A DNA stretch of 64,000 bases from [Ruminococcus] torques ATCC 27756 (lineage in GTDB: Bacteria; Bacillota; Clostridia; Lachnospirales; Lachnospiraceae), in the NCBI RefSeq assembly GCF_000153925.1, contig NZ_DS264345.1, forward strand, positions 372,001-436,000, given 5' to 3'. Below are positions 4,534 through 28,262 of this stretch, one piece after another. Every line of letters starts with the position of its first letter. Position 1 is the stretch's first letter. The translations under genes were made by a program, and so were the position numbers. The notes under the pieces are model-generated. The model had not been told where the DNA came from. It did no database searches and saw only the letters and a list, made by a program, of their open reading frames with translations.

Positions 4534-7392
4534 ATGAATAAAATAAAAAGGGGCGTGTCACTGTTATTATGCAGTTTGCTATTTGGTTCTGCCGTAACAT
4601 TGGGGAATGTGGCCGATGTACAGGCAGGCAAACAGATAAAGACAGAGACAAAACAAACAATAAATAATACGAAAACAAAGAAGAAAGTTTCCGACGATCA
4701 GACATCAGGTAAGACAGGGCGGAATGAGGAAAATAAAGCAGGGGAAGGAGCGCAGACTGATATTGCTGAATCAAAAGTAACTTTTTTTGTGTTGCCTGTT
4801 TATACACAAGGAACTACGGCAATCAGTATAGACAGAGATATAGGCATCGGGCAGATTATGGACGTTGGTTTTACAGATCGTAATTTTGCCGTTGCAGTTT
4901 ATGATTCTTTGTTTGAAGCAGGATGGATGGGAACACCGGGGCAAAGCGTGAAAGAAGTTTTAGGGTCTTTTACGGGGATGATAAAAGCAGACGGATATGC
5001 AAGGAAAGTAACATATATAGCATCTGCACAGATGGCTACGTTTATTCCATCGTTTGAAATTAAGGATATATCAAAAGAATTTAATACGCAGGAAGAGGCA
5101 AACAAGTATCTGGAGTCATTAGTGGATGAGCCCGGAGCTGTGCAATATGCAAATAAGAAAGTTGAGAAAAAAACAGAACAGTTAGACACTCAGAAGCCGG
5201 AGAATGAATTGATCAAAAGTATCGAAGGAATCGAGTGGCTTAGAAAAGCCGGAATGATCGACTTAGAGAACAATGCCATTTCGGATTTGTCGCCTTTATC
5301 AATAAATTATTTGGAATCATTAGGTTCTGCGGAAGGATTGACCGATATTGATGAAGGAAAAAAGTGGTTTGGAGAGCAGCTTAGAAATACACATCTTAAT
5401 ATATCTTTAAATCCGGTGCGAAAATATCCGGTAATAGCCGGAGGGCGTTTGATCATAAAGCAAACGCTCGACCAGGCGTTTAAATTAGGAGCAGATCCGG
5501 TAATTTTGATCAAACCGGAAGATAATTCAGATGAAAATATAAAGAATATAAATCTGTCAATTCCTTATATTGAACGCGGTGGACTTCGTATTGAAATATT
5601 AAAAGACCAAGATGCTACGATGATTCAGTCTACCAATATCGATGGCGCTTATTTGGACTATGATAAACTGACAGATGAAATATTTCCGGTGCGTAATGTT
5701 TCGTCAAGTGGATATGTGAGATGCGGTTTGGGAACAGATAATGTGTTGTGGTATTATGGCACGGCGGAAAATGCGGAAACAGATATGTCGACGATCGGAA
5801 GTTCAAGCATGAAATTTTTAATTAATCATATGATCCGTATTTATGTAAAAGTAAAACCGGAACCCGCAGAAACAAAGCTTACTTTGACAAAAACGGTAGC
5901 AGGCACCGACGAAGGAAGATTCAGACCTGTAAAAGATGCAAAATTTAAGCTGTATAAAGCCGTTCGGGACGAGGAAGGCAATTTTGTAAAAGGAGAGCTG
6001 TATCAGCCGGATGAGTATATAACAGATGAAGAGGGAAAGATAAATTTTAGTACGGAGATTCCGAACGGAGACTATTGTTTTGCAGAAACAGAAGCTCCGG
6101 AAGGTTTTGAGTTAAACAGTGATCCTGTCTTTTTCTCGGTTGGGGGCGGTGAAATGGAAATCACAGGCGGAGAACAGACGGTAACGCCTACAGAAGGAGA
6201 ATCCACATCAGCCGGGGAAAACAGTACATATATCGATCGATATTCGCCGGATGTAAATATTAAAGTTACTCCGGGAACAGGGATGGTGTTAGATCAGATC
6301 ATTGTAACGTATTTTGACCGGAAAACGCAGAAGAATACCGGGAAGACCTTTACAAATGAGACGGGAGAAGCGGCAAAAAACGCCGCTGAGTTTATTAACA
6401 AAGGAAAAGGTGATGAAAAAGAGGCCGGGGTGATTGACGGTACGGTAACAGTTCAACCGATTTACAGATTGAAGGCGAATCTTACAGTCGGAAATGACAG
6501 AGAAAAAACGGACTTTGTTTTTAAAAAGGTAAGCGCAGAAGATCAAACTGTGATGGAAGGAGTTCGGTTTAAACTAACATGTAATCATAAACATGATAAA
6601 AAGTGCAAAGGCTTGATTTCACCGGAGTCTTGTACACATGCACATAACGATAAGACGGGATTTGTGGATGAACAAGGATGTACATGGAGCGCGGAAGAGG
6701 TAAGCAAGGCTGATGGAATCGTGAAGTTTTCAGAACTTGTATCCGGCGAATACATATTATCAGAAGAGGCGACATTGGATGGATTCATTTTGCCGGAAGG
6801 AACATGGACAGTAACCGTCGATGCACATAAAGATGAAGTTAAAGTAGAAAAAACAGAAAAAGACGATTCCACAGTTCCGCAGTTCGAAAAAAAAGATGGA
6901 ATTCTTCAAGTGGAAAATGAACCTACAGTCCCGTTTTCCTTCATAAAAGTAGATGAAAAAACAGGAAATGAGCTTGCGGGCGCGGAATTTACCCTTTATC
7001 AGGGTGATGAGAACGATGCCGACAAATGGAGCATTGTAGGAGGTCCGGTTGTATCATCAGAAGAAGGAATTGTTGATTTCGGTCGGTTGAAACAAGGGGA
7101 ATATTTTCTTAAAGAGACAAAAGCTCCGAAAGGATATTTGAAACCGACGGGATATTGGAAGGTGACTATTGCTGTTACAGATGATGCCAGTAAGAAAGTC
7201 ACTTTTGAAGCAAGAGGCGACGTACCGGCAATCAGTGGAAATCATATAGAAGGATTTAAGGTTTCTAACAGAGAGACAAGCCTCCTTCCGAAGATGGGAG
7301 GAAACGGTACGAAGATTTTTGTGTTCAGTGGATTTATGATCATCTGTTGTTCACTTGTATTATATTTTAGATTCAAAAGAAAAGGAGCTTAA
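4534..7392 (+). CDS. Sortase-anchored Cna-B/SpaA-type tip or minor pilin
   Basis: A 952-residue cell-surface protein. It has a signal peptide (residues 1-32, basic start, hydrophobic core, A-x-A-like end), a unique N-terminal region to about 420, then Cna-B/SpaA prealbumin-like domains. Clear ones start near 450 (KLTLTKTVAGTD), 665 (DFVFKKVSAED) and 795 (FSFIKVDEKTG), with E-box motifs such as YCFAETEAPEG and YFLKETKAPKG. The cell-wall sorting signal is LPKMGG at 918, a hydrophobic helix and KRKGA. The middle Cna-B domain holds a His/Cys-rich insertion (residues about 684-715). First gene of the pilus operon; a tip adhesin role is inferred from size and order. Confidence 0.88.
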   Translation: MNKIKRGVSLLLCSLLFGSAVTLGNVADVQAGKQIKTETKQTINNTKTKKKVSDDQTSGKTGRNEENKAGEGAQTDIAESKVTFFVLPVYTQGTTAISIDRDIGIGQIMDVGFTDRNFAVAVYDSLFEAGWMGTPGQSVKEVLGSFTGMIKADGYARKVTYIASAQMATFIPSFEIKDISKEFNTQEEANKYLESLVDEPGAVQYANKKVEKKTEQLDTQKPENELIKSIEGIEWLRKAGMIDLENNAISDLSPLSINYLESLGSAEGLTDIDEGKKWFGEQLRNTHLNISLNPVRKYPVIAGGRLIIKQTLDQAFKLGADPVILIKPEDNSDENIKNINLSIPYIERGGLRIEILKDQDATMIQSTNIDGAYLDYDKLTDEIFPVRNVSSSGYVRCGLGTDNVLWYYGTAENAETDMSTIGSSSMKFLINHMIRIYVKVKPEPAETKLTLTKTVAGTDEGRFRPVKDAKFKLYKAVRDEEGNFVKGELYQPDEYITDEEGKINFSTEIPNGDYCFAETEAPEGFELNSDPVFFSVGGGEMEITGGEQTVTPTEGESTSAGENSTYIDRYSPDVNIKVTPGTGMVLDQIIVTYFDRKTQKNTGKTFTNETGEAAKNAAEFINKGKGDEKEAGVIDGTVTVQPIYRLKANLTVGNDREKTDFVFKKVSAEDQTVMEGVRFKLTCNHKHDKKCKGLISPESCTHAHNDKTGFVDEQGCTWSAEEVSKADGIVKFSELVSGEYILSEEATLDGFILPEGTWTVTVDAHKDEVKVEKTEKDDSTVPQFEKKDGILQVENEPTVPFSFIKVDEKTGNELAGAEFTLYQGDENDADKWSIVGGPVVSSEEGIVDFGRLKQGEYFLKETKAPKGYLKPTGYWKVTIAVTDDASKKVTFEARGDVPAISGNHIEGFKVSNRETSLLPKMGGNGTKIFVFSGFMIICCSLVLYFRFKRKGA

Positions 7393-7396
7393 AATT

Positions 7397-9004
7397 ATGG
7401 GAAAGATTTTGAAATATATGACAACGATAGCTCTGGCAGCAGTAATGTTGTTTGGAACAATGACGACGGCGTTTGCTGTGGAAAATAGCGGACAAGTAGT
7501 GGGTAATGACCAGAAAGGTTCTATTACGATTCATAAATATAAGATGCCTGATGCAGAAAATGCGTTTGAATCAAACACAGAAAACGGCGGTATTGAAATG
7601 GATAGTCTTCCTGAAACGGCAGAACCGCTGGCAAATGTTAAGTTTCAGGTTACAAAAATGGAGCAGGACCAAGCGGGAAAATGGAACGAAACGACAATAT
7701 CTCGTACGGTAGTTACGAATGAGTCCGGAGAAGCAGTTTTGGAAGATCTTCCGTTGGGCAGATACAAAGTAGAAGAGTTAGGTTTGGATTCATCCGATGG
7801 AAGTGATGCGGTTCTTCCGAATGAGAAAGATGATGCGATGGTAGGAAAAGCATTTTATGTTGATGTTCCGATGACGCAGGCAGACGGTCAGACACTTAAT
7901 TATAATGTACATGTATATCCAAAGAATGAAGTGCTGTCTATTGAAAAGGATGTTACATATGCAGGAAATAAGCATGATTCTTTTGATATGCAAGAGAATC
8001 AGACGTGGATTATCCATACGGCGATTCCGGGTAATATTGCATTGACAAATGATAACGGCAGCTATGATACCGCAAAATTATACAAAGTGACAGATAAAAT
8101 CGATTCTCAGCTTACATATAAAGGGAACATTGTTGTTAAAGCGGTAGATAAGGATTATAAAACGGTAATAGATGAGTTAGAAAAAGATACGGATTATTCA
8201 GTGGAAGAGCCGGCAGAAGGAAATGAGAATACATTGATAATAAGTCTGACCGATGCGGGAAAAATAAAATTGAAAAAAGCGATTAATAATCCGGATGCTC
8301 AGGCTGCATTTCTTCAGATCCGTTTTGATACGATGATCAATAAAACGGCAAAAACAGGGGAAGCAATTTATAATGACGCAGATTTGAAATTTACAACTGC
8401 AAAGGGTACGGCTGTTGATGTAAGCGTGCCTGAAAACGAGCGGCCGGAAGTACATACCGGAAAGATTGCCATTAAAAAGGTTGGGGAAAAGGCAGACGGA
8501 ACACCTTTAAAAGATGTTGAATTTATGATTTTCGACAGTACGGAAAAAGCACAGGCAGCAGTAAAACTTCTCCAAAATAATAAGGCGGGAGAAATTACAG
8601 GAGCTTTGAAGGTATATGATCCGAATCAAAAGGAATTTACTACAGTTGTAAAGACGAACGATAAGGGCGTTGCAGAGTTTAGAGGTCTTGCATATTATAC
8701 AAATAAGGCGAATGAAGAAAATAAAGTTCAAGGTGACGACGCAGCTACCGGAGCAAAGAAGTATTATCTTGTAGAGACAAAAACGGTAAAAGGATATCAG
8801 CTTCCGAGTAAATATTTTGAAGTGACAGTGAATCACGATTCATCTACTGCTACGGTTCCAAGCGATACGATCATAAACACAAAACCGAGTAAACTTCCGG
8901 CAGCAGGTGGAAATGGAACGATCATTTTTACGGCAGTCGGTCTGACGGTTATGGCAGCGGCGGGCATTATTATTTTTATGTCCAGAAAGAAAAAAGATCG
9001 CTGA
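7397..9004 (+). CDS. Major pilin with isopeptide domains
   Basis: A 535-residue pilus shaft subunit. The signal peptide ends near AFA-VEN (residue 27). The pilin motif VYPK places the polymerising lysine at K176, the residue joined to the sorting-signal threonine/glycine equivalent of the next subunit by a class C sortase. The E-box is YYLVETKTVKGYQ near 470. The sorting signal is LPAAGG at 500-505, then a membrane helix and RKKKDR. ATG 7397 follows AAAGGAG, 4 bases after the previous stop. Two class C sortases follow. Confidence 0.93.
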   Translation: MGKILKYMTTIALAAVMLFGTMTTAFAVENSGQVVGNDQKGSITIHKYKMPDAENAFESNTENGGIEMDSLPETAEPLANVKFQVTKMEQDQAGKWNETTISRTVVTNESGEAVLEDLPLGRYKVEELGLDSSDGSDAVLPNEKDDAMVGKAFYVDVPMTQADGQTLNYNVHVYPKNEVLSIEKDVTYAGNKHDSFDMQENQTWIIHTAIPGNIALTNDNGSYDTAKLYKVTDKIDSQLTYKGNIVVKAVDKDYKTVIDELEKDTDYSVEEPAEGNENTLIISLTDAGKIKLKKAINNPDAQAAFLQIRFDTMINKTAKTGEAIYNDADLKFTTAKGTAVDVSVPENERPEVHTGKIAIKKVGEKADGTPLKDVEFMIFDSTEKAQAAVKLLQNNKAGEITGALKVYDPNQKEFTTVVKTNDKGVAEFRGLAYYTNKANEENKVQGDDAATGAKKYYLVETKTVKGYQLPSKYFEVTVNHDSSTATVPSDTIINTKPSKLPAAGGNGTIIFTAVGLTVMAAAGIIIFMSRKKKDR

Positions 9005-20519: not shown

Positions 20520-22628
20520 ATGGGAAACAAAAATACAAACTTGCAAATGGCCAAGAATGCCAAGGACGATGAGTTTTACACAACATATGAGACTGTCGAA
20601 AAGGAGATGGCACATTATGTGCAACATTTTGAAAGAAAAACGGTCTTGTGTAATTGTGATGATCCATTTGAATCAAATTTTTGCAAGTTCTTTTTGAAAA
20701 ATTTTAATGTCCTAAAACTGAAAAGGTTGATATGTACTTCCTTTAGTTCATCAAAAGTTATGGGTACTCAGGTCGCTCTTATGGATGATGATAGCGAAGT
20801 GCTGACTAAAGGAAATGGATATGTTCTGGATATTACCGGAATATGCGAGGGACAGGGTGAGTTGTCGGATGAGTATGTTACTCAATTTTTGCTGCAGTCT
20901 AAAGTTATAAAAAAATTAAAAGGAAATGGAGATTTTAGAAGTGACGAATGTCTCCAGTATTTGGCAGAATGCGATATAGTAGTTACGAATCCCCCTTTCT
21001 CGCTGTTTAAAGAAATTGTTGCAGAGATTGTTAAATACAAGAAGAATTTCCTAATTATAGGAAATCAGAATGCATTAACATACAAAGAAATATTTCCGTT
21101 GATTCAAAATAATGAAGTATGGACTGGATATCAATTTGGAGAGATGAAATTTAGAGTTCCGGATTCTTCTGAACCACGGTCAACCAGATATTGGGTCGAT
21201 GAGACGGGGCAAAAGTGGAGAAGCCTAGGCAATGCAATGTGGCTTACCAATCTTGATAATGATAGAAGGCATGAAAGACTGAATTTAACGAAAAAATATA
21301 CACCAGAAGAATATCCAAAATATGATGATTATGATGCAATCAATGTCAGAAGGATAACGGATATCCCATATGATTATCCCGGAATTATGGGAGTGCCAAT
21401 AACAATAATTAATAGGTATAATAGTGAGCAGTTTGAAATTGTAGGGGAAGCGAATCACGGCTCGGATAATGAGTATGATTTGTTTAAGCCTACGATTAAG
21501 GGAAAATTACTGTTTAAAAGAATACTGATAAAAAATAAGCAACCAATGAAAGAGGAAACTCCAATGTTTAGAATACTAGATTTGTTTAGCGGAGCAGGTG
21601 GAATGTCATATGGAATGGAAAAAAATGAGCATTTCACAACTGAAGTTGCATTGGATTTTAATGAAAAGGCACTTCAGACATTTAAGCACAATATGCCAGA
21701 TACAGAAACTGTATGCGGGGATATTACAGATGAAAAAATAAAAGCCAAGGTCATAGAATTGTGTAAAGCAAAAAAAGTGAATATGATTATTGGTGGTCCG
21801 CCATGCCAAGGATTTTCATTAAAGGGTAAAAAATTAGGACTGGATGATCCAAGGAATTTTCTTTTCAATGAATATTTACGTTTTGTAGAAATATTAAAGC
21901 CAGAGGTGTTTGTGATAGAAAATGTGAAAGCATTATTATCTACATCAGCCGGGTGGTTTAAAGATCAGATAATTAAAAAAGTAACGGAAATGGGATACCA
22001 TGTCGAATATGGAGTATTAACAGCATCAGATTTTGGTGTGCCACAGGCGAGACAAAGGGCAATTTTCATTTGTTCAAAAAATAAAAGTATTCCACTTCCG
22101 GCAGCCACATGTGAAACTCCTGTTACAGTTAGAGATGCGATATACGACTTGGCTTATTTAAATTCAGGCGAGGGAGAATTTGAACAGGATTATATCACAG
22201 AACCAAGTAGCGAGTATCAAAAACAGATGCGAAGAGGAAGTAAGAAATTATATAATCACAAGGCATCAAATCATGCGGCGATTGCAATAAAAAAACTTGA
22301 GATGATTCCGCCAGAGTGCGGGAAAGAACATCTTCCATCGGATATGGTTGGTAATCAGCAGTTTTCAGGAACATGGGGAAGATTAAAGTGGGATGCAGTG
22401 TCACCGACTATAGATACTAGATTTGATGCATCTTCAAATGGAACGAATAATCATCCGTTTCTGCATCGAGCAATTACGCCAAGAGAAGCTGCAAGAATAC
22501 AATCATTTGATGATAAATTCGTATTTATCGGACAAAAGCTATATATTAGGCAGCAGATTGGAAATGCAGTGCCACCTTTAATGGCAAAAGCAATTGCAGA
22601 TCAAATAGACAATATTTTGCAAAAATAG
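20520..22628 (+). CDS. Fused adenine (EcoRI-type) and C5-cytosine DNA methyltransferase
   Basis: A 702-residue two-enzyme fusion. Residues 1-340 resemble the EcoRI-family N6-adenine methylase: the N-terminal NTNLQMAKNAKDDEFYTTYE region, motif IV NPPF at 157-160 (VVTNPPFSLF), and a downstream YPKYDDYDAINV segment. Residues 349-702 are a complete C5-cytosine methylase: DLFSGAGGMS, GGPPCQGFS with catalytic C429, VFVIENV, RQRAIF, TPREAARIQSF and QIGNAVPP. The second domain has its own in-frame ATG (21564) with GAGGA 7 bases upstream, so a separate C5 enzyme may also be made. Two different methylases suit protection of the two strands of an asymmetric site. Confidence 0.9.
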   Translation: MGNKNTNLQMAKNAKDDEFYTTYETVEKEMAHYVQHFERKTVLCNCDDPFESNFCKFFLKNFNVLKLKRLICTSFSSSKVMGTQVALMDDDSEVLTKGNGYVLDITGICEGQGELSDEYVTQFLLQSKVIKKLKGNGDFRSDECLQYLAECDIVVTNPPFSLFKEIVAEIVKYKKNFLIIGNQNALTYKEIFPLIQNNEVWTGYQFGEMKFRVPDSSEPRSTRYWVDETGQKWRSLGNAMWLTNLDNDRRHERLNLTKKYTPEEYPKYDDYDAINVRRITDIPYDYPGIMGVPITIINRYNSEQFEIVGEANHGSDNEYDLFKPTIKGKLLFKRILIKNKQPMKEETPMFRILDLFSGAGGMSYGMEKNEHFTTEVALDFNEKALQTFKHNMPDTETVCGDITDEKIKAKVIELCKAKKVNMIIGGPPCQGFSLKGKKLGLDDPRNFLFNEYLRFVEILKPEVFVIENVKALLSTSAGWFKDQIIKKVTEMGYHVEYGVLTASDFGVPQARQRAIFICSKNKSIPLPAATCETPVTVRDAIYDLAYLNSGEGEFEQDYITEPSSEYQKQMRRGSKKLYNHKASNHAAIAIKKLEMIPPECGKEHLPSDMVGNQQFSGTWGRLKWDAVSPTIDTRFDASSNGTNNHPFLHRAITPREAARIQSFDDKFVFIGQKLYIRQQIGNAVPPLMAKAIADQIDNILQK

Positions 22629-22661: not shown

Positions 22662-23534
22662 ATGAATATTGAAATGGCTTATATGCTTGGAATGATTCTT
22701 GGAAATGGTGAGATACAGCAGAATGCTACCGAAACAACAGTGACCATAGATATTCCATATAAAAATTTGTATACTGATGATTTAAAAGATGTAGCTGTTT
22801 ATGTTAAGGCAAGTATAGTAGATATTAGATCTATTGTAGAACCCTTAATAGGACATGCGTTAAACATTACTGAAGCACCGCATTCTACCAAAATGTCATT
22901 TACAAAGCCGAATGAAGAATATGTAGTAAGAGAAATGCTGAGACTTATTGGCGGTGGACGTCACCATTCTACTATGAAAATGAATGCCGAACTTTTTTCT
23001 ATTACTACAGATCAAAAGAAGGCTTTATTGCGTGGTATCGCAGATGTAACAGGATATATAAGAAAAAGTAATATTGCTTTTGGTCAGGATGGAGCACATA
23101 GAGTCTATATAGAGATTCCGGGAAATTGGTATATGGTAATTGATATTGCCAATATGCTAAAAGATGTTGATGTTCCAGTCCAGACAATTGATTTCGGCCA
23201 TCCGAATTTTAGAGATGGAAATTTGGTTAAGTATAACGCCGGAAAGCCAAATTTCTGGAAGAAAGAACATCAGGTAAAGATATTTGCAAATGAGTTTTTA
23301 CCTGTGGGATTTAACATTAAGCATAAGCAGGATGCTTTGGAGAAGTATGCGGATGAGTTGCTGGAATTCATTGATCCTGTTAAAACACATAAATTTTATT
23401 GGGAAAAAAGAGTACGCAGGGCGAACAAACCTATCCATCCCGGCGAAAATGATCCGTCATTGCCAGAAGAAATCAGAGGAAAGCATTTTGACTCGTGGAC
23501 TGATTTAGCGGGGTTCTTAGGATATGGCGAATAA
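22662..23534 (+). CDS. LAGLIDADG-fold protein with degenerate active sites
   Basis: A 290-residue protein with two LAGLIDADG-like helices: AYMLGMILGNGEI (residues 6-18) and LLRGIADVTGYI (122-133). In active homing enzymes each helix ends in a catalytic aspartate before the glycine. Here these are N15 and T130, so both acids appear lost. The remaining body (IEIPGNW, VKIFANEFLPVGFNIKHKQDALEKYA) is also typical of the fold. AAAGGAG precedes ATG 22662. It overlaps the next nuclease gene by 11 bases. I infer a DNA-recognition subunit for the restriction enzyme; cleavage by itself is unlikely. Confidence 0.7.
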   Translation: MNIEMAYMLGMILGNGEIQQNATETTVTIDIPYKNLYTDDLKDVAVYVKASIVDIRSIVEPLIGHALNITEAPHSTKMSFTKPNEEYVVREMLRLIGGGRHHSTMKMNAELFSITTDQKKALLRGIADVTGYIRKSNIAFGQDGAHRVYIEIPGNWYMVIDIANMLKDVDVPVQTIDFGHPNFRDGNLVKYNAGKPNFWKKEHQVKIFANEFLPVGFNIKHKQDALEKYADELLEFIDPVKTHKFYWEKRVRRANKPIHPGENDPSLPEEIRGKHFDSWTDLAGFLGYGE

Positions 23535-24021
23535 TGTAAAAAAAGAATTTGAATTATATGAGCCTATGAGATTATGGCTTCAGCAGTATTTGGAAGACAA
23601 ATATAAAAACGCAACGGTAATTACAGTAGATTCTCATGCAAGAACTTTAGATTTATTTCTTGAACAATACGATGTGATAGATTATTATCCACAGACAATA
23701 GGACTCGATATACAGATAGATGTGCTTGGAATTGTAAAGAAAAATGGAAAACCACAAATATTTTTTATCGAGGCTAAAAAGACGCAGTTGAATTTGCATG
23801 ATTTAGGACAGTTATGGGCTTACTGTAAATTGTGTGATCCAATGGAAGCATTTCTGTTATCCTCTGCAGGGCTTGGTAGCCTAAATAAAATAATGAATAA
23901 TTTGCACAGGACAGATTTACTAGAGTTTGGAGATGGAAAGAAAATCAAAAAGATGCAAATTGGTAAATGGGATGTGGGGAAAAATTCAATTGATTATCAC
24001 AGTCTTGTTCCGAAAATGTAG
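23524..24021 (+). CDS. PD-(D/E)XK nuclease, probable restriction subunit
   Basis: A 165-residue protein with a readable PD-(D/E)XK core: LDIQIDVLG (D62/D66), FFIEAKK (E83, K85), then LHDLGQLWAYCK with the motif glutamine (Q96). No separate DNA-recognition domain is visible. The start codon lies inside the end of the LAGLIDADG-fold gene, so the two are translationally coupled and probably form one complex. With the fused methylase upstream this looks like the cleavage half of a restriction-modification system. The family name is not recognised. Confidence 0.72.
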   Translation: MANNVKKEFELYEPMRLWLQQYLEDKYKNATVITVDSHARTLDLFLEQYDVIDYYPQTIGLDIQIDVLGIVKKNGKPQIFFIEAKKTQLNLHDLGQLWAYCKLCDPMEAFLLSSAGLGSLNKIMNNLHRTDLLEFGDGKKIKKMQIGKWDVGKNSIDYHSLVPKM

Positions 24022-24051: not shown

Positions 24052-24411
24052 ATGATAGAAAAAATTTTAGATAAAAATAATATAGCATATAAGGTTATTG
24101 ATGGCGAGGGCAATACAACTATTATAAAAATAAATGGGAAATTACATATGCTTTATATACATAATAAAGGAAATCAATTTCAAGTGGAAAGGGATTTCTT
24201 TGAGTATATAGACGGAAATTCTATTCCATATGTTATTTTGTGTGAAGATGACAATACCCATGTATTATATTATTTGAAATTGAATAAAAAGGCTAACTGG
24301 GTCAAATCATGTTTTGATACATGCGATAAGGACGTTATATATTTAGGAAAGCAGGTTTTAAATTCTAAAGTTACAGAGACCGATTTGATTAAAGAACTGA
24401 AGAAATACTAG
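24052..24411 (+). CDS. Small protein of unknown function in the restriction locus
   Basis: A 119-residue soluble protein, not recognised. It is predicted alternating beta and alpha (TTIIKINGKLHMLYIHNKG, PYVILCEDDNTHVLYYL, WVKSCFDTCDKDVIYLGKQVL). The layout strand-strand-DDN-strand-WV-S could be a degenerate nuclease-like fold, but no catalytic set can be named. AGAGGTAGAAG precedes ATG 24052, 30 bases after the PD-(D/E)XK gene, so it belongs to the same operon and may assist restriction. Confidence 0.6.
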   Translation: MIEKILDKNNIAYKVIDGEGNTTIIKINGKLHMLYIHNKGNQFQVERDFFEYIDGNSIPYVILCEDDNTHVLYYLKLNKKANWVKSCFDTCDKDVIYLGKQVLNSKVTETDLIKELKKY

Positions 24412-24478: not shown

Positions 24479-25366
24479 ATGGCATATGGTAAATCAATAG
24501 AATTATTTCTAGTTAATGGCACTGCTGATAGCTTAATAACGGCAGAATTGTCAAATTGGAATGGTAAAGCTATTAAAATTCCACGAATTGAAGTGCCTAC
24601 ATGCAGTAGGGAAGATATTAAGCAAGCGGGTGTTTATTTTTTGTTCTGTAAAGAAGATAACGGGAAAGATTCTGTGTATATAGGAGAGGCAGAGAATGTA
24701 AAAGAGCGGTTGATTCAGCACCTAAGAGATGCACAGGCTGAGAAGGAAAAATATTACTGGAATACTGCAGTTATATTTATAGGAAGAGACCTTAATAAAG
24801 CGTTGATTAGATATCTCGAAAACCGTTTTGTAGAAATTGCACGACAGTGTAATAGATATGAGGTTCTTACAAAAAATACATATAAAAATACTGTGCTAAA
24901 GGAATCCCAAGTTGCAAGTATGGAAGAATTTGTTGATAATGTAAGGATACTGATTAATGCACTTGGTTATAAGGTTTTGGATGCATACACTAATGCTATT
25001 CCAAAAGAAAATCCAGTTGGAGATACGGAGAAAAAAGAAGATATAAAGTTGTATTTGGAGCGTGTCATAAAAAATGTAGGAAAAATAGAGGCACAGGGTA
25101 CAATCACATCTGAAGGATTTATTGTATTAAAAGGAAGCCAGATATCTCCAGTGGATGACAATACTGTTCCTGACACAATAAAAGAACAAAGGTGTATCAG
25201 TAATATCATAGATGGTATATTACAAGAAGATATGCTTTTTTCAAGTCCGTCAGGTGCGGCAATGTTTGTCGTCGGTAAAAGTGATAATGGTTTGACACGA
25301 TGGAAGGATGAAAATGGTCGCACTTTAAAAGAAATTGAAAATCATGAAATGATGAATGAAAATTAA
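24479..25366 (+). CDS. GIY-YIG nuclease with DUF4357 domain
   Basis: A 295-residue protein. The GIY-YIG domain spans about 46-150: GVYFLF (51-56), VYIGEAENVKERL (66-78, with Y67 and R77) and catalytic E114 in RYLENRF. A DUF4357 domain (about 205-285: GFIVLKGSQIS, LFSSPSGAAMFVVGKSDNG) closes the protein. DUF4357 is common in restriction-associated nucleases. ACGGAGGC precedes ATG 24479. An additional or alternative restriction nuclease of the locus is plausible; specificity is unknown. Confidence 0.85.
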   Translation: MAYGKSIELFLVNGTADSLITAELSNWNGKAIKIPRIEVPTCSREDIKQAGVYFLFCKEDNGKDSVYIGEAENVKERLIQHLRDAQAEKEKYYWNTAVIFIGRDLNKALIRYLENRFVEIARQCNRYEVLTKNTYKNTVLKESQVASMEEFVDNVRILINALGYKVLDAYTNAIPKENPVGDTEKKEDIKLYLERVIKNVGKIEAQGTITSEGFIVLKGSQISPVDDNTVPDTIKEQRCISNIIDGILQEDMLFSSPSGAAMFVVGKSDNGLTRWKDENGRTLKEIENHEMMNEN

Positions 25367-26976: not shown

Positions 26977-27091
26977 GCAAGCACGCTAATAAATGAACAC
27001 CGATATAAAAAGTGAAAATGCGAAAAAGTTAAAAAGCGAAAAACAAAGCGAAAACGAAAAGAAAAGTGAAAACAGAGAAAAGGTGAAAATT

Positions 27092-27460
27092 ATGATGTAT
27101 GCGAATTTTGGAGAATTTATAAGCAAGAAGAGAGTTGAAAAGAAAATCACACTGAGGAAAATGGCTGATATGTTAGGCGTATCCGCACCGTTTTTAACTG
27201 ATGTAGAAAAAGACAGACGCAACCCCTTCGATATGGAAAAACTTACACAACTCGCACAGATACTGAATTTGTCAAAAGAAGAAAACGCACAGATGCTTGA
27301 CCTTGCTGGAAAGAAGAGAAATGCCGTAGCACCAGACCTTCCAGAGTATATTATGGAACGGGACTATGTCAGTGCAGCTTTGAGGACGGCAAGGGACTTG
27401 GATGCAGGAGAAGAAGAATGGAACCAGTTTGTCGAGGAACTGAGAAAGCGAAAGGGGTAA
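27092..27460 (+). CDS. XRE-family phage repressor
   Basis: A 122-residue repressor. The helix-turn-helix spans about 4-62 (FGEFISKKRVEKKITLRKMADMLGVSAPFLTDVEKDRRNP, in part), followed by a short acidic C-terminal region. ATG 27092 has AGGTG 6 bases upstream. The open frame extends up to ATG 26993 through a low-complexity Lys/Glu/Ser stretch encoded by AAAAGYGAAAA repeats; that part is more likely untranslated leader. It is paired with the ImmA/IrrE gene 10 bases downstream, the usual arrangement of a protease-sensitive repressor. Confidence 0.88.
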   Translation: MMYANFGEFISKKRVEKKITLRKMADMLGVSAPFLTDVEKDRRNPFDMEKLTQLAQILNLSKEENAQMLDLAGKKRNAVAPDLPEYIMERDYVSAALRTARDLDAGEEEWNQFVEELRKRKG

Positions 27461-27470
27461 GAACCTATAT

Positions 27471-28262
27471 ATGTATAGACCTGAAATTAAAAGAAAGAGA
27501 TCTGGGGCACCAGTGTTAAGCAGAAAAGAGATTGATGTTATCGGACAGAATATTGTCGGGGATTTTATGCCGGAAGCATTAAAATCTCCACAGGAAATAG
27601 ATATCGATTTGTTGGCACAGGATTATCTGGGAATGGATCAGGACTTTCAGTACCTGTCGCACTGCGGTGTTTATCTTGGTATGACGGTATTCAATGACAC
27701 GGACAAAGTACCCGTGTATGATCCGCAGAATAACTGTGCGGACTATATCAGTGCAAAAGCACATACCGTGATAATCGATAAGACGCTCTTGGAAGAAAAT
27801 CAGGAACACAGATATCGTTTTACGATGGGACACGAGGCAGGACATGAGTTTTTACATAAAGAATATTTTGCCTATGATCCTGACCAGATAACACTGTTTG
27901 ACCTGATGGGAGAAACTCCGGCACCAATGGTTCAGTGCCGTGTGGACACAAAGAAGATGGACTGCCGGACATCGAAAAGCTGGACAGACAGGGACTGGAT
28001 GGAATGGCAGGCAAATGCGTTATCATCTGCAGTTCTGATGCCTGTTTCAATGGTACGGATGGTAGCTGAAAATTTTAAACGGCCCGGACTGCAGCAGATT
28101 TTTTGCCATTATGCATTGGCTGAAGAAGTGGCTTCCATATTTAATGTTTCATTTGAAGCAGCAGGATACCGATTGAAACAGCTTGGATATATTCCACAGG
28201 AGACACAACTGAGTACAGATATCCTTAACATGATTTCTTTTGATTTGGCTTGTAATTACTAG
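27471..28262 (+). CDS. ImmA/IrrE-family metallopeptidase
   Basis: A 263-residue zinc peptidase. The active-site helix TMGHEAGHEFLH carries HEXXH (about 121-125), and the downstream glutamate lies in WMEWQANALSSAVLMP. In ICEBs1 and related elements ImmA cleaves the XRE repressor to trigger induction; the same role is inferred here. ATG 27471 follows AAAGGGG. It forms an operon with the XRE gene and is closed by a terminator. Confidence 0.9.
   Translation: MYRPEIKRKRSGAPVLSRKEIDVIGQNIVGDFMPEALKSPQEIDIDLLAQDYLGMDQDFQYLSHCGVYLGMTVFNDTDKVPVYDPQNNCADYISAKAHTVIIDKTLLEENQEHRYRFTMGHEAGHEFLHKEYFAYDPDQITLFDLMGETPAPMVQCRVDTKKMDCRTSKSWTDRDWMEWQANALSSAVLMPVSMVRMVAENFKRPGLQQIFCHYALAEEVASIFNVSFEAAGYRLKQLGYIPQETQLSTDILNMISFDLACNY

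Follow-up and report, generated by a model that had tools for sequence, protein, structure and literature searches.

The classic homing nucleases are LAGLIDADG proteins, which also provide a basis for the meganucleases of genome editing. In the engineered fusions PvuII-I-SceI and MegaTev an inactive LAGLIDADG protein guides another nuclease domain, and WhiA is a LAGLIDADG-fold transcription factor for which we know of no linkage to methyltransferases or to a nuclease. Among restriction enzymes, the closest described systems are those of Type IIT such as BtsI, BsrDI and BspD6I, in which a large subunit both recognises and nicks DNA, a small subunit is a second nuclease, and two methyltransferases go with them (PMC4081073, PMC2909958). 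Enzymes of this type act at asymmetric sites and generally have two methyltransferases, separate or joined, according to the main text of a 2014 review of Type II enzymes, in which LAGLIDADG is absent (PMC4081073). The large subunit has its own catalytic site and nicks alone, with P57/D58/E72 as the PD-EXK motif of BtsIB, and the small subunit BtsIA is about 18.6 kDa when reckoned from the published concentrations (PMC2909958).

We found no LAGLIDADG-based restriction system in the open full-text literature searched, beyond which lie most subscription papers, bioRxiv and REBASE, and none in passages of PMC11997821, PMC551604, PMC1564403 and PMC4619093. Within that open literature the fold was not found described for the recognition subunit of a restriction enzyme, which agrees with an earlier reading of this DNA made from its letters alone (the sequence-only reading) that knew of no restriction system of such build. 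A LAGLIDADG claim had previously been made for GmrS of the Type IV system GmrSD and was later rejected, GmrS having no such motif and a ParB/Srx fold instead (PMC4619093).

Here we describe a methyltransferase-linked gene pair on the forward strand of a 64,000-nucleotide stretch of [Ruminococcus] torques ATCC 27756 (contig NZ_DS264345.1, positions 372,001 to 436,000), which we call the window. The pair encodes S, a 290-aa protein with a two-half LAGLIDADG fold that we propose as a specificity subunit, and N, a 165-aa single-domain PD-(D/E)XK nuclease that we propose as a cleavage subunit. The gene set is real, found widely and conserved, and in all likelihood it acts like a two-subunit Type II restriction system. 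The reading that we favour, at a probability of roughly 70%, is Type II-like restriction-modification in which N, docked on target-bound S, does the cutting and methylation protects against it. If true, S and N would form a natural counterpart of the engineered inactive-meganuclease fusions, with separate subunits where those are man-made fusions, and would bring a new recognition fold to restriction enzymes. Furthermore, the pair would be a candidate two-component cutting tool, provided that LAGLIDADG-style recognition gives long or tunable sites.

The cassette opens with a fused methyltransferase of 702 aa (20520-22628), in which an EcoRI-type N6-adenine methyltransferase domain with an NPPF motif (residues 7-340, 20538..21539; Pfam PF13651, E = 9.4e-122) is followed by a C5-cytosine methyltransferase domain with PCQ and ENV motifs (residues 350-696, 21567..22607; PF00145, E = 1.5e-72). 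These matches bear out the fused double methylase that the sequence-only reading had placed just upstream of S. S follows at 22662..23534 and N at 23524..24021; the start of N within S, noticed in the same reading, amounts to an overlap of 11 bases (23524..23534), which suggests translational coupling of the two frames. In the relatives listed, too, the S and N frames overlap or nearly abut. The linkage of methyltransferase and nuclease genes that characterises Type II restriction-modification is present, and no helicase or translocase subunit of the Type I or Type III kind was found among the 10 window proteins scanned. Rfam and tRNA scans gave no match.

Neither the window's S nor its N has a significant match in Pfam, NCBIfam, PADLOC or PHROG, none of the 73 S rows and 75 N rows of our alignments matches Pfam better than E = 0.001, and searches of PDB sequences with phmmer and hmmsearch returned nothing significant for either protein. 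Because no family model matches significantly, the LAGLIDADG assignment of S rests on fold and profile comparison, and this evidence mattered because the claim for GmrS had later been rejected; unlike for GmrS, fold and profile agree for S. The AlphaFold2 model of S, based on the 73-row alignment, has a pLDDT of 90.2 and a pTM of 0.90. Its helices 3-15 (22668..22706) and 116-130 (23007..23051) each start one alpha-beta-beta-alpha-beta-beta-alpha half, so that S has the two halves with LAGLIDADG helices that define the superfamily, and both this layout and the GxxxGxG helix motif are those of the homing endonucleases I-AniI, I-DmoI and PI-SceI. In the PDB, all 50 Foldseek matches listed are LAGLIDADG-type at a probability of 1.00 (E values down to 2.6e-6). 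The best are I-AniI, bI3 maturase, I-DmoI, PI-SceI, E-DreI and WhiA structures (8dy9 and 3hyj are among the matches), and I-SceI, further inteins and others are also listed; their TM-scores scaled to the query are moderate, at 0.34-0.50. In the viral library the matches are homing endonucleases, probable intein-bearing proteins and unnamed proteins. The sequence-only reading had named a predicted structure lacking the LAGLIDADG fold as a result that would refute it, and both the confidence of the model and the Foldseek matches favour the fold.

Profile comparison with hhalign points the same way. Against a profile of 30 LAGLIDADG_3 segments, the S profile gave a pairwise E of 2e-5 and a probability of 77% in domain 2, and the same comparison gave at most 0.3% for five other cassette profiles (N and four methyltransferase profiles). 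Compared separately, domain 2 scored 36.4 and domain 1 scored 20.7, column-shuffled controls (50 each) reaching a maximum of 18.9; domain 1 by itself matches this profile weakly, at just 3% probability.

The acidic metal-binding residue that ends each LAGLIDADG helix, a hallmark of the active endonucleases, is missing from S. In the profile-profile alignment, whose domain 1 match is weak, N15 and T130 align with the catalytic D columns of LAGLIDADG_3, T130 standing where Asp or Glu would be catalytic; the open reading frame and the modelled helices agree with the sequence-only reading, which had picked out two LAGLIDADG-type helices carrying precisely these residues in a 290-residue protein. 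Across 73 rows, position 15 is N in 71, R in one and G in one, and position 130 is T in 71, A in one and I in one. All 73 rows lack both acids, so the loss characterises the whole family and is no defect of a single copy. This loss, together with an operon that holds methyltransferases and a separate nuclease, distinguishes S from the LAGLIDADG homing endonucleases, and the fold without a nuclease role is what S would share with WhiA / DUF199. It is plausible that the ancestor of S was a homing endonuclease and not some other DNA-binding protein of LAGLIDADG type.

Many polar residues of S, among them D128, E151, H180, N182, K222, H259 and H275, are invariant in all 73 rows. H259 and H275 lie, with an invariant P260, in a C-terminal extension (residues 237-290, 23370..23531) that has no LAGLIDADG profile match; from its conservation, this extension could possibly serve N docking or a second function.

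In the AlphaFold2 model of N (pLDDT 94.7, pTM 0.90), D66 immediately precedes strand 67-73, strand 76-85 ends with E83-x-K85, and helix 91-104 and strand 108-113 come next. N therefore has the D...ExK residues on neighbouring core strands and the core alpha/beta topology of PD-(D/E)XK nucleases. The active site (D66 ... E83-A-K85, 23719..23778) is kept throughout the family, with E8, D66, E83, K85 and Q96 invariant in 75 of 75 rows. Restriction enzymes come first among the Foldseek matches of N (EcoT38I, MspJI and BamHI), and these matches are weak (E = 0.02-0.04, none at or below 0.001). The description of N from sequence as a D...ExK core with no recognition domain is upheld by the order of D66, E83 and K85 and by a model that leaves no room for such a domain.

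Next we compared the cassette with 85 relatives besides the window. The genome collection holds 142 relatives of S, of which the best 80 were fetched, so that counts out of 80 describe the closer part. The fetched relatives are assigned to Bacillota, Bacteroidota, Spirochaetota, Synergistota, Thermodesulfobacteriota, Melainabacteria and Pseudomonadota bins; many are metagenome bins and single assignments may be wrong. The S proteins of loci L013 and L014, from a Desulfobulbaceae bin and a Clostridiales bin, are identical, through recent transfer or mis-binning. Elsewhere, relatives of S were found on two Lactiplantibacillus plantarum plasmids (6.5 and 8.8 kb), in two phage records and on four IMG/VR contigs. 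Among 398 genomes of the window's phylum S is rare, being present in 4.

We found that S is unbroken in 79 of the 80 loci and that N-like sequence directly follows it in 79, N being unbroken in 77, two of which (L055 and L067) reach the contig end. The exceptions are L056, in which S and N are both frameshifted, L037, in which N is frameshifted, and L062, in which N is absent and the methyltransferase and S are unbroken. Searches based on N returned the same two plasmids and the same four IMG/VR contigs as those based on S, and N is present in 2 of the 398 genomes, both of which also have S; none of these searches found a locus with N and without S. The converse, S and a methyltransferase without N, occurs at two loci, L062 and the distant form G116. 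Upstream of S, an adenine and a cytosine methyltransferase are present in 76 of the 80 loci, and in the other four (L054, L058, L076 and L082) S lies within 2 kb of a contig end. The S-N linkage is near-obligate, and the co-occurrence of the gene pair beside methylases, which the sequence-only reading had suggested as a check, is confirmed by these counts. Since N follows S in 79 of 80 loci, we rejected N as an accidental neighbour.

For the conservation and structure alignments, rows at least 98.5% identical to a kept row and repeat fetches of the same record were dropped, as were L056, L037, L062 and L082 (S truncated at a contig end), the S of L037 and L062 being unbroken even so; L007 and L010 were also left out before structure prediction.

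Three distant forms show other compositions. G210 (L003/L012) has a single C5 methyltransferase, a 464-aa S and an N frame, the long frame of L003 being this S variant followed by a separate N frame. G116 (L002/L011) has a beta-class methyltransferase and S without N, and G458 has a C5 methyltransferase and the start of an S-like protein that meets the contig end. In G362 (L138:5231-5971), a beta-class methyltransferase frame passes directly into the terminal part of an S-like protein; this looks like the remnant of a cassette that has decayed and suffered an internal deletion. No N was found in G116 or G362 at E values up to 1. Among 97 sequences, no open reading frame was matched by both profiles as a fused S-N protein would be.

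Both genes are under purifying selection, dN/dS between L022 and L024 being about 0.04 for S and 0.09 for N. Between the window and L010, pS is 0.75 for S and 0.77 for N, and pN is 0.10 and 0.18, respectively. The cassette is more than a chance arrangement because 85 relatives were compared and both S and N show purifying selection. The evolutionary distances of S and N are correlated (Pearson correlation 0.76), and so are those of the C5 and adenine methyltransferases (0.77). Since the methyltransferase pair correlates no less, the S-N correlation indicates co-inheritance, not contact, and co-evolution as a sign of direct S-N contact was rejected as non-specific.

Under the favoured reading, the fused methylase would mark one adenine and one cytosine; in the simplest case the site is asymmetric and each of its strands receives one of the two marks. 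S, monomeric and with both metal-binding acids lost, would straddle the site through its beta-sheet saddle as the specificity subunit and would recruit N, perhaps through the conserved C-terminal extension. N, a PD-(D/E)XK domain without a recognition part, would cut unmethylated DNA, and the second strand may be cut by two N subunits or by sequential nicks. A nuclease-dead LAGLIDADG specificity subunit acting with a separate nuclease, the core of the sequence-only proposal, gains support from the fold and from the co-occurrence of the genes; on this reading S and N would form a complex, S would read the target, N would cleave it and methylation would protect it.

The cassette resembles Type IIT systems in its genes for two different subunits and in its adenine and cytosine methyltransferases, separate or joined (one methyltransferase in G210 and G116), and its site is presumably asymmetric. 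An alternative is that S has kept nuclease activity at a relocated active site and cuts one strand while N cuts the other, as in BtsI and BspD6I. The conserved C-terminal extension and the invariant polar residues of S leave room for such a site, and S stands beside a methyltransferase without N in G116 and L062. However, the large Type IIT subunit carries a second catalytic site, of PD-EXK type in BtsIB (PMC2909958), whereas S has a LAGLIDADG fold in which that fold's acids are lost. The nuclease models of Pfam, NCBIfam, PADLOC and PHROGs do not match the window's S, nor do those of Pfam match any of the 73 S rows. The similar sizes of the subunits also raised the identity of S and N with BtsIB and BtsIA, which we set aside because BtsIB carries a PD-EXK motif, at residues 57-72 (same source). 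On balance we regard a relocated active site in S, another result that the sequence-only reading had named as refuting it, as unlikely.

The absence of a recognition domain in N bears on another alternative, in which N recognises the site itself and S is a regulator, such as a transcriptional controller of restriction-modification genes. The WhiA structures among the fold matches speak for it, as does the ability of a LAGLIDADG fold to act solely in DNA binding; nevertheless a 165-aa N whose model has no space for a further domain, the position of S directly ahead of N and the failure to find N without S make this role for S highly improbable. We give still slightly less credence to a cassette that serves mobility or gene regulation rather than restriction, in which case a homing element would have been domesticated together with methylases. 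Homing is a frequent role of LAGLIDADG proteins and the cassette is present on phages and plasmids, but the acids needed for LAGLIDADG cleavage are gone from every S row, all close loci other than the four cut ones have both methyltransferases (two distant forms have one), and the window and the three relatives checked have defence-like neighbours. Type II-like restriction-modification, with S as the binding and N as the cutting subunit, is the reading that we retain.

Next, we examined the methyltransferase sets. Of the motifs concerned, NPPF and NPPY belong to adenine N6 methyltransferases, SPPY usually to cytosine N4 and PCQ to cytosine C5 methyltransferases. Among the 80 loci, an EcoRI-type enzyme is combined with a C5 enzyme in 56 (27 fused, 29 separate including the fragments of L056), a gamma-class (Eco57I/TaqI-type) with a beta-class enzyme in 17 and a C5 with a gamma-class enzyme in 3; within these 76, L056 has only methyltransferase fragments, and L024 and L042 have a shortened EcoRI-type part. 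Cultured strains with the EcoRI-type plus C5 set include Lactiplantibacillus plantarum P9 and CYLB101 and Ruminococcus albus 8, and Anaerotignum neopropionicum DSM 3847 has the gamma-class plus beta-class set. The motifs are kept nearly throughout: NPPF in 60 of 61 EcoRI-type hits, NPPY in 22 of 22, SPPY in 21 of 21, and in C5 hits PCQG[FY]S in 65 of 66 and ENV in 66 of 66, counts that exclude hits below 60 bits, C5 frames shorter than 300 aa, beta hits longer than 320 aa and two unrelated long C5 proteins. By their motifs and the known chemistry of the families, all 76 pairs therefore comprise one adenine and one cytosine methyltransferase, and such a pair would be expected for a site whose strands are differently marked. 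Contrary to a rule of one methyltransferase per strand, G210 (C5) and G116 (beta-class) have a single methyltransferase despite available upstream sequence.

Furthermore, we found that each methyltransferase set largely follows clade. A tree of 81 S rows, which leaves out two distant and three cut loci, requires 3 changes between the sets, compared with a minimum of 2 and with 20.8 after shuffling. The EcoRI-type plus C5 set occurs in two separate clades, and well-supported branches force one change for this set and two for the gamma-class plus beta-class set. Across the sets, the C5 target-recognition segments of 18 sampled loci share 66-79% identity with that of the window, much the same level as the whole C5 domain (67-78%). 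In S, the second-half strands b5-b8 are among the most conserved parts, with a mean entropy of 0.26-0.58 bits vs 0.82-2.15 for the first-half strands (71 rows); as a signal of the target this is to be read with the proviso that conserved catalytic or structural residues would look alike. A methyltransferase chemistry that varies by clade beside a nearly constant second DNA-binding face of S suggests a shared target. On the simplest reading of these sequences, the target of S would be at least partly conserved and its adenine and cytosine marks would come from different enzymes according to lineage. The wider idea, that the LAGLIDADG saddle is a dedicated specificity subunit for one conserved asymmetric target on which the marks have been exchanged (EcoRI-type or Eco57I/TaqI-type for adenine, C5 or N4 SPPY for cytosine), is one that we advance tentatively, at somewhat short of even odds. 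It makes testable the question of whether a restriction system can keep its target while swapping its protective methylation chemistry.

A prophage with phage NatCom_40364 as a relative carries the cassette at its margin, the S proteins of the two being 99.7% identical; of 11.6 kb compared, the two are 97% identical over 6.0 kb and 94% over 2.2 kb. The prophage interrupts a gene that we take, by eye, to be comEC, the first part of which ends at about 19650 in the window and the rest of which starts at about L139:11762 (G000:C39 about 447762). The prophage is about 56 kb long, and the comEC-like break falls between GIGHLLAISG and GLHMSFIG. At the prophage ends the compared flanks share no repeat longer than 13 bases, and the comEC break itself has one of 9, lengths compatible with chance. 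Two frames at the far end (L139 1011-3978 and 6936-8801) are presumably serine-recombinase-like, again judged by eye. An HTH_3 repressor and a Peptidase_M78 (ImmA/IrrE-like) protein are paired at 26993-28262 of the window, possibly as a prophage switch.

In the relatives, the Gabija genes GajA and GajB (L004, an IMG/VR contig, 5768-8525) follow the cassette and a small accessory gene, and an Orf5/HEC-06-type protein and a Ppl-like protein are found near the cassettes of L010 and L006, respectively. The neighbours of the cassette fit a defence island. Just 3′ of the cassette in the window, at 24479-25366, lies a gene for a GIY-YIG and DUF4357 protein that matches the PADLOC candidate PDC-S14 (E = 6e-96). 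A 119-aa protein without known family is encoded between N and this gene (24052-24411), and in NatCom_40364, but not in NatCom_34063, the gene after N is equally long.

Small proteins of one family (about 112-164 aa) occur within or close to the cassette at 32 of 86 loci, in one or two copies (for example L065:6497-6985, L068:3749-4564, L004:5199-5648 and L020:2487-2825). Five members scanned have no significant match in Pfam or PADLOC, and the family may be a third component of the cassette. In L069, L075, L078, L079 and L096 the small protein is fused to a C-terminal domain that matches NOV_C (PF13020 in L069).
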